From positions 62,001 through 126,000 of the forward strand of contig DAHUYN010000001.1 in assembly GCA_027315165.1 (NCBI GenBank): a stretch of 64,000 nucleotides of DNA. The letters are read 5' to 3'. Numbering within the stretch: position 1 is the first letter of the stretch; the number at the start of each line of letters is the position of its first letter. The position numbers and the translations under genes were made by a program. The stretch is from Thermoplasmata archaeon. GTDB taxonomy: Archaea; Thermoplasmatota; Thermoplasmata; Lutacidiplasmatales; UBA184. This document shows positions 17,656-43,566 of the stretch, piece by piece. The notes below the pieces were generated by a model that saw only the letters and a list, made by a program, of their open reading frames with translations, was not told the DNA's origin and ran no database searches.

Positions 17656-17764
17656 TGGGGCTGCCCGAATTTGAATCGGGGTCCCGGGCTCCCAAAGCCC
17701 GAAGGATGGACCAGTAGAGCGGCTCCGGGGAGCGTCCCCGCGACCGTAGCTACCCCACAGCCCC
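17656..17764 (-). tRNA. tRNA-Pro(TGG) interrupted in the D-loop
   Basis: On the minus strand the acceptor stem is GGGGCTG with CAGCCCC. The anticodon arm is CGGGC-TTTGGGA-GCCCG with anticodon TGG, and the T-arm is CCCGA-TTCAAAT-TCGGG. The discriminator is A, and CCA is not encoded. The D-arm begins GGGGTAGC and resumes at TGGTCCATCC, but about 34 extra nt lie between, containing a CGGGG/CCCCG stem. This is best explained as an intron at a non-canonical D-loop site; exact splice points could not be fixed because several registers fit. The 5' end is 9 nt after the UPF0179 stop codon, suggesting co-transcription. Confidence 0.88.
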
Positions 17765-43333: not shown

Positions 43334-43437
43334 CGCCCTGGTCGGGAGTCTCCCGGCGGGCGCGGAGGCGCCCGTCGTTTCGAACCCGAGTCGCAGGCTC
43401 GACAGACCTACATCCTAGACCGCTAGACTACCAGGGC
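43334..43437 (-). tRNA. tRNA-Asp(GTC) interrupted in the T-loop
   Basis: On the minus strand the acceptor stem is GCCCTGG with CCAGGGC and discriminator G. The D-arm is GTCT-loop-GGAT. The anticodon arm is TAGGT-CTGTCGA-GCCTG, with anticodon GTC. The T-stem is TCGGG with CCCGA directly before the acceptor strand. The T-loop begins TTCGAA and should close after one more base, but about 31 nt intervene, containing a GGGCG/CGCCC hairpin. Removing those bases gives the standard TTCGAAT loop, so this looks like an intron at position 59/60. Confidence 0.88.
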
Positions 43438-43566
43438 AGCGCCCGAGCGCGGTACCCGTTCGTTCTCTTGAACCTTGCCCACGCCGTCTCGAGGTCGGGA
43501 CGGGGTGGCGCCGGCCCGTTTCCCGTGGACGTGAGGGGATTATGTAGGCGGTCGTGGAAATCGTGG

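Follow-up and report, generated by a model that had tools for sequence, protein, structure and literature searches.

A functional and apparently single-copy tRNA-Asp(GTC) gene, with a BHB intron between T-loop positions 59 and 60 that is spliced by an alpha'2 EndA together with RtcB, is the reading of this locus to which we assign a probability of about 0.93. The gene lies in a stretch of 64,000 nucleotides from a Thermoplasmata archaeon, referred to here as the window, and the reading rests on the anatomy of the gene, on intron boundaries established by comparison, on conserved pairing and on the presence of genes for EndA and RtcB. Archaeal BHB tRNA introns at 59/60 are of a known kind; what is unexpected here is the lineage of the host, how many such introns it has, and the enzyme.

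The features of the gene are collected in Table 1. The T-stem TCGGG/CCCGA encloses 38 nt, and when 31 of these are taken away the loop reads TTCGAAT. The acceptor stem GCCCTGG/CCAGGGC has 7/7 pairs, the anticodon is GTC and, with the insert removed, a standard 73-nt cloverleaf results that ARAGORN calls as a clean tRNA-Asp(GTC). A model of mature tRNA-Asp scores the gene at 86.4 bits (E 2.6e-16). A preliminary description of this DNA had reported the same stem around some 38 nt, a TTCGAAT restored by removal of 31 nt, and an intron at 59/60. Its coordinates proved exact, with 38 nt counted, the restored loop agrees with both the sequence and the ARAGORN call, and the position is borne out by the BHB geometry, an empty site in tRNA-Glu, the lack of an intact tRNA-Asp and 11 more genes with an insert at the same site. 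A by-eye comparison of 12 tRNA-Asp upstream regions revealed a promoter-like AAGGTTCA(T/A)AG about 30-40 nt upstream of the gene in relatives from the genus, slightly altered in the window, and this putative element is consistent with tRNA-Asp expression.

Table 1. The interrupted tRNA-Asp(GTC) gene and its predicted splicing features, in positions of the window.
Feature	Position	Strand	Basis
tRNA-Asp(GTC) gene, unspliced, 104 nt	43334..43437	-	cloverleaf and ARAGORN call after insert removal; mature tRNA-Asp model
Exon 1, 59 nt, positions 1-59, 3' end TTCGAA	43379..43437	-	sequence; conserved in family
31-nt intron ACGACGGGCGCCTCCGCGCCCGCCGGGAGAC, between T-loop positions 59 and 60	43348..43378	-	R1 match; BHB register statistics
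Exon 2, 14 nt, positions 60-73 (T60, T-stem 3' strand, acceptor 3' strand, G73)	43334..43347	-	sequence
5' strands of outer helix (T-stem 49-53) and central helix (T54 T55 C56 G57)	43381..43389	-	partners 43342-43346 and 43350-43353
5' bulge A58 A59 ^ A(i1)	43378..43380	-	geometry: 3-nt bulge, cut after second nucleotide
Predicted 5' splice site	between 43379 and 43378	-	bulge geometry; AA^N in 37/37 Asp introns
Intron hairpin with CTCC loop; inner helix CGACGGGCGC / GCGCCCGCCG has one A x C mismatch	43354..43377	-	fold; registered pairing far above swap null
Central helix, intron strand GGAG	43350..43353	-	T54.G, T55-A, C56-G; G57 x G mismatch
3' bulge A C ^ T60	43347..43349	-	geometry; NN^T at all introns examined
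Predicted 3' splice site	between 43348 and 43347	-	bulge geometry
Promoter-like element AAGGTTCAAGAG, ~30-40 nt upstream of gene	43465..43476	-	resembles AAGGTTCATAG in relatives, by-eye comparison

ARAGORN called no tRNA on the raw window, and the Rfam tRNA model gave a truncated match to the locus of 21.5 bits, under its cut-off of 29. A covariance model of the T-loop intron (R1) was trained on 11 genes of this genome, including tRNA-Asp. Because MAFFT alignments of whole introns fell out of register, its input consisted of pieces of equal length in which the apical loop was masked. In the window R1 gave a single significant match (34 bits, E 6e-7; runner-up 13.9 bits), and since the same site was also reached by a model naive to the intron, the insert is not attributable to chance. 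Across the genome itself, the window and relatives, 121 loci were accepted as R1 matches and 121/121 prove to be tRNA genes when the insert is taken out; they comprise 118 distinct genes with 21 anticodons and introns of 21-35 nt. With default settings ARAGORN gave right-ended calls for 0/123 unspliced genes. Common tRNA finders overlook genes with T-loop introns, and the tRNA sets of such archaea will therefore seem incomplete.

A search for BHB motifs, proposed in the preliminary description, found the motif. In each gene the T-stem serves as outer helix and T54 T55 C56 R57 lie opposite intron positions -3 to -6, with 3-nt bulges at A58 A59 ^ i1 and at i(n-1) i(n) ^ T60, while the intron stretch from i2 to -7 forms a hairpin, the inner helix. 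A hairpin register leaving 1 intron nucleotide before and 6 after was the best of those tried, with 3.76/4 pairs over the 118 genes against 2.16/4 (sd 0.08) for a swap null in which 3' ends were exchanged between introns; three central pairs are present in all and position 60 is T in 118/118 genes. The central-helix pairing count (118/118) is biased because the training of R1 included these pairs. Free of this bias are the partner of R57, which was not modelled as a pair, and the Asp introns, which were collected with the mature-tRNA model. G57 lies opposite C in 71/73 and A57 opposite G in 66/74 distinct introns, a linkage between R57 and its partner with a Fisher p of about 2e-38 over the 147 introns. 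A57 faces U in just 5 of the 74, a preference for A.G over A-U. It has been described in review, for pairing of the anticodon, that exon 1 pairs with the 3' end of the intron in the archaeal BHB central helix (PMC4090602). A central helix drawn between the 5' end of the intron and exon 2, by which there would be no BHB, was rejected as having the wrong orientation.

The succession of outer helix, 3-nt bulge, central helix of about 4 bp, 3-nt bulge and inner helix is present in the window intron, with a relaxed central helix. Of the four positions of this helix, two form Watson-Crick pairs, one is G.U and the last, G57 x G, is a mismatch; the intron is one of the 2/73 with G57 that have no C facing it, a weakness that counts against the preferred reading. 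So does the in silico minimum of the precursor, which in isolation is not the cloverleaf with BHB (-55.3 vs -40.5 kcal/mol), with the mature tRNA also misfolding in silico (-32.6 vs -25.0 kcal/mol).

The mature tRNA-Asp model, which is naive to the intron, was run on 41 genomes of the family and found an interrupted tRNA-Asp with the same insert site in 39 of them (38 sequences read, plus locus L230); the remaining 2/41, which are 85-89% complete, gave no high-scoring Asp match. Among the 37 distinct Asp introns the exons are 90% identical and the intron core is 57% identical, against 53% when shuffled. T54, T55 and C56 are paired in 37/37, C lies opposite G57 in 25/26, and the inner-helix positions are paired in 28 to 35 of the 37, with many pair types and compensatory changes. 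The third inner-helix pair, i4 x -9, is paired in 19/37 against a null of 16, near chance, between neighbours that are paired, and may be an inherited mismatch or a feature. An intact tRNA-Asp elsewhere in the genome had been named in the preliminary description as evidence that would speak against the intron. Neither a second nor an intact tRNA-Asp was found by Rfam and mature-Asp searches of this 94%-complete assembly and of the 41 family genomes, and these genomes likewise yielded no empty allele of tRNA-Asp itself. An intronless tRNA-Asp appeared to be present in 11 relatives, and was rejected when the eleven 73-nt runner-up matches that were fetched proved to be tRNA-Glu(CTC).

That tRNA-Glu(CTC) gene carries a T-loop intron in the genus of the window and in genus g7, and is uninterrupted in 11 genomes of the sister genera g2, g4, g5 and g6. 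Joining the exons from the window genome gives a sequence that the uninterrupted genes match, in several genomes at 73/73 positions, with the junction TTCAAA^T, and the boundaries of the Glu intron are therefore fixed, up to equal neighbouring letters. The empty site also shows that the intron was gained or lost cleanly.

The assembly containing the window (2.04 Mb, 61 contigs, estimated completeness 94%) was inventoried for tRNA genes by Rfam searches at permissive thresholds, reading of loci and R1. At least 12 of about 42 detected tRNA genes have T-loop introns. Inserts after TTCRAA and before T60 occur in Asp GTC, Glu CTC, Ser CGA, Ser GCT, Ser GGA, Arg TCT, Arg TCG, Asn GTT, Gln CTG, Leu TAG and Lys TTT, these 11 of the 12 having been spotted first by tRNA searches and by eye, without a motif model. 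R1 recovered the ten other training genes at 33 to 40 bits, with the next match at 14.7, and added Gly TCC (C1:45636-45682) as the twelfth. The survey of the parent genome suggested in the preliminary description has thus provided 11 more genes with an insert at 59/60. Further inserts are present in the D-arm of Pro TGG, Arg GCG and Met and, as second inserts, of Lys TTT and Leu TAG, and in the anticodon region of Met, Tyr, Leu TAA and Trp, so that intron-bearing genes amount overall to about 19/42 (about 45%), the boundaries of the D-arm and anticodon-region introns being approximate. It had also been stated that two of two tRNAs are interrupted, and this is correct: the other is tRNA-Pro(TGG) at 17764..17656 (-), with an insert in the D-arm.

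Several of these other inserts have features of their own. For the D-arm insert of tRNA-Pro(TGG) (17656-17764, -) the best BHB solution is not unique. Both tRNA-Leu(TAG) (L039, contig C9 ~23.0-23.2 kb) and tRNA-Lys(TTT) (L040, contig C1 ~10.2 kb) combine a D-arm intron with a T-loop intron, and for the D-arm introns of this pair it is possible to draw BHBs that have 4 central pairs. The long insert in the anticodon region of tRNA-Trp(CCA) (L041, contig C33 ~102.3 kb) contains C/D-box-like sequences.

One EndA gene was detectable: PF01974 matched twice within a single frame and nowhere else in the genome. One RtcB gene is present. The EndA aligns end to end with the alpha'2 EndA of A. fulgidus and has its catalytic repeat (Tyr/His/Lys) at the C-terminus; it has two repeats in one chain, C-terminal catalytic residues and no second gene beside it, as is characteristic of the alpha'2 type. 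In PDB 3p1y, an A. fulgidus EndA furnished with the crenarchaeal loop, the loop lies between YGS and the next strand. This broad-specificity insertion with its conserved Lys is absent after YGS in the EndA of the genome itself (YGSRVGARLELSL) and in 22 relatives. The PRGG region of the N-terminal repeat was considered as a substitute for the loop and rejected; it is probably ancestral, since its alignment to M. jannaschii EndA is almost gapless and the A. fulgidus chain, which is shorter, lacks it.

The alpha'2 EndA has been described as narrow in specificity (PMC6379350; PMC12397907), and Euryarchaeota with alpha4 or alpha'2 enzymes are reported to have introns in <10% of their tRNA genes, with a single intron in each and always at 37/38 (PMC4090602). 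This reported restriction of alpha'2 enzymes to the canonical position counts against the preferred reading. Introns at other positions have been credited by others to lineage-specific EndA loops. One group maintains that homodimeric EndA also accepts BHB-like motifs with an internal loop, and has shown cleavage of minimal BHB substrates at 30 C by the homodimeric EndA of Ferroplasma, a member of the Thermoplasmata (PMC8707768). On the simplest interpretation, the EndA of this genome restricts the motif and not its position.

According to the mechanism that we propose, the precursor would fold with the T-stem as outer helix, T54-T55-C56 (usually with R57) and the 3' end of the intron as central helix, and the hairpin as inner helix. 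Cleavage at both 3-nt bulges is most likely the work of the homodimeric alpha'2 EndA, which would recognise the motif irrespective of where in the tRNA it lies; RtcB most likely ligates the exons to give TTCGAAT, and charging of the resulting mature tRNA-Asp would be expected. Since the intron holds T54-C56 in base pairs, modification of the T-loop would have to wait until the intron is gone.

Three other explanations were weighed. The failure of standard tRNA finders to detect the gene would fit a pseudogene created by the insert, or an error of assembly, but this is the sole tRNA-Asp found, with the same site occupied in 39/41 family genomes, its exons conserved and the structure of the insert kept, which leaves the idea with a negligible chance and refuted for practical purposes. 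It is highly improbable, too, that the insert is retained, giving a working mature tRNA with an enlarged hairpin in its T-loop. The hairpin is stable and splicing of the gene is a prediction, but TTCRAA and T60 are so preserved that removal yields exactly TTCRAAT, T54, T55 and C56 are sequestered through pairing with the intron, the core of the intron is free in sequence, and the orthologous tRNA-Glu can be without an intron.

Excision might instead occur at 58/59, or be carried out by another nuclease than EndA, or leave a nicked tRNA. By sequence alone TTCGA^..^CT likewise yields a 7-nt loop in this gene. Against this stand the empty tRNA-Glu site, which places the Glu intron to the base up to equal neighbouring letters, the fact that the 3-nt bulges are in register at 59/60 alone, and the invariant T60; such excision is very unlikely, if the least improbable of the three.

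R1 matches were found in 76/200 genomes of the class, including 20/20 of the genus, these counts being lower bounds because the filters of the survey were strict (genome G057 is unmatched there yet has the Asp intron, L265), and in 17/194 genomes of a sample of the phylum. Every R1 locus fetched in the two surveys is a tRNA gene with a T-loop intron. Arg(TCT) is the commonest carrier and was seen in several families. In another class of the phylum the T-loop introns are 15-18 nt long (L297-L299, L303-L305), a length that seems close to the smallest at which a BHB can include an inner helix, and A57 lies there opposite U (L296, L299, L303). The named relatives of the EndA, at up to 72% identity, belong to Thermoplasmata MAGs, including UBA184 and several AcS/SubAcS genomes, the latter being Ca. 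Lutacidiplasmatales, archaea of acidic environments (PMC9287336). On the basis of this EndA similarity the host probably belongs to that order or close to it. These surveys show that the T-loop intron site is widespread in archaea where reviews exclude such introns. The statement in the preliminary description that such introns are known mainly from hyperthermophilic Thermoproteota holds for their presence in that group but is too narrow, given Asgard archaea (PMC11291895), a red alga (PMC9602550) and the Thermoplasmata host here.

We consider it rather likely that T-loop introns occur in many families of the phylum, outside TACK, Asgard and DPANN, and in a large number of tRNA isotypes, and that in the lineage of the window they are spliced by an alpha'2 EndA that has no loop. 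If this is true, the rule that enzyme type sets intron position is wrong as stated: what the enzyme restricts is the motif, not where it lies, and no change of enzyme is needed for T-loop BHB introns to appear and be maintained. With introns in about 45% of detected tRNA genes, 12 of which have them in the T-loop, the genome breaks the alpha'2 pattern, and the idea of co-evolution between enzyme and intron is therefore testable with one purified enzyme. The host range and enzyme context appear to be new, although an earlier report from Thermoplasmatota may exist outside the open-licence literature.

Among known systems, 59/60 is listed as one of the non-canonical tRNA intron positions of archaea (PMC4090602). 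The 59/60 introns of Thermoproteales, the best known of them, share with those described here the point in the T-loop, the short length, BHB-type junctions and their presence several times in one tRNA set, but the host here is a member of the Thermoplasmatota with a fused alpha'2 EndA, unlike the (alpha beta)2 enzyme with a crenarchaeal loop found in Thermoproteota. Canonical BHB introns at 37/38 have the identical layout, with a central helix between the loop and the 3' end of the intron and with 3-nt bulges, since in either case a 7-nt loop is cut behind its sixth nucleotide; they differ in that the T-arm is involved here and that the fourth central pair is often A.G, not a standard pair. 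A BHB motif in the T-loop is also found in tRNA-Ile(UAU) of Cyanidioschyzon merolae, where Pus4 formed no pseudouridine 55 in precursors with the T-arm intron (PMC9602550). There the enzyme is eukaryotic and the intron is one of three in a single gene, in contrast to the many isotypes of the lineage described here. Asgard archaea were reported in 2024 to have abundant introns at non-canonical positions, and Atabeyarchaeia and Freyarchaeia (PMC11291895) resemble the host lineage as non-thermophilic archaea of soil in which introns at unusual positions are plentiful; they belong to another phylum.
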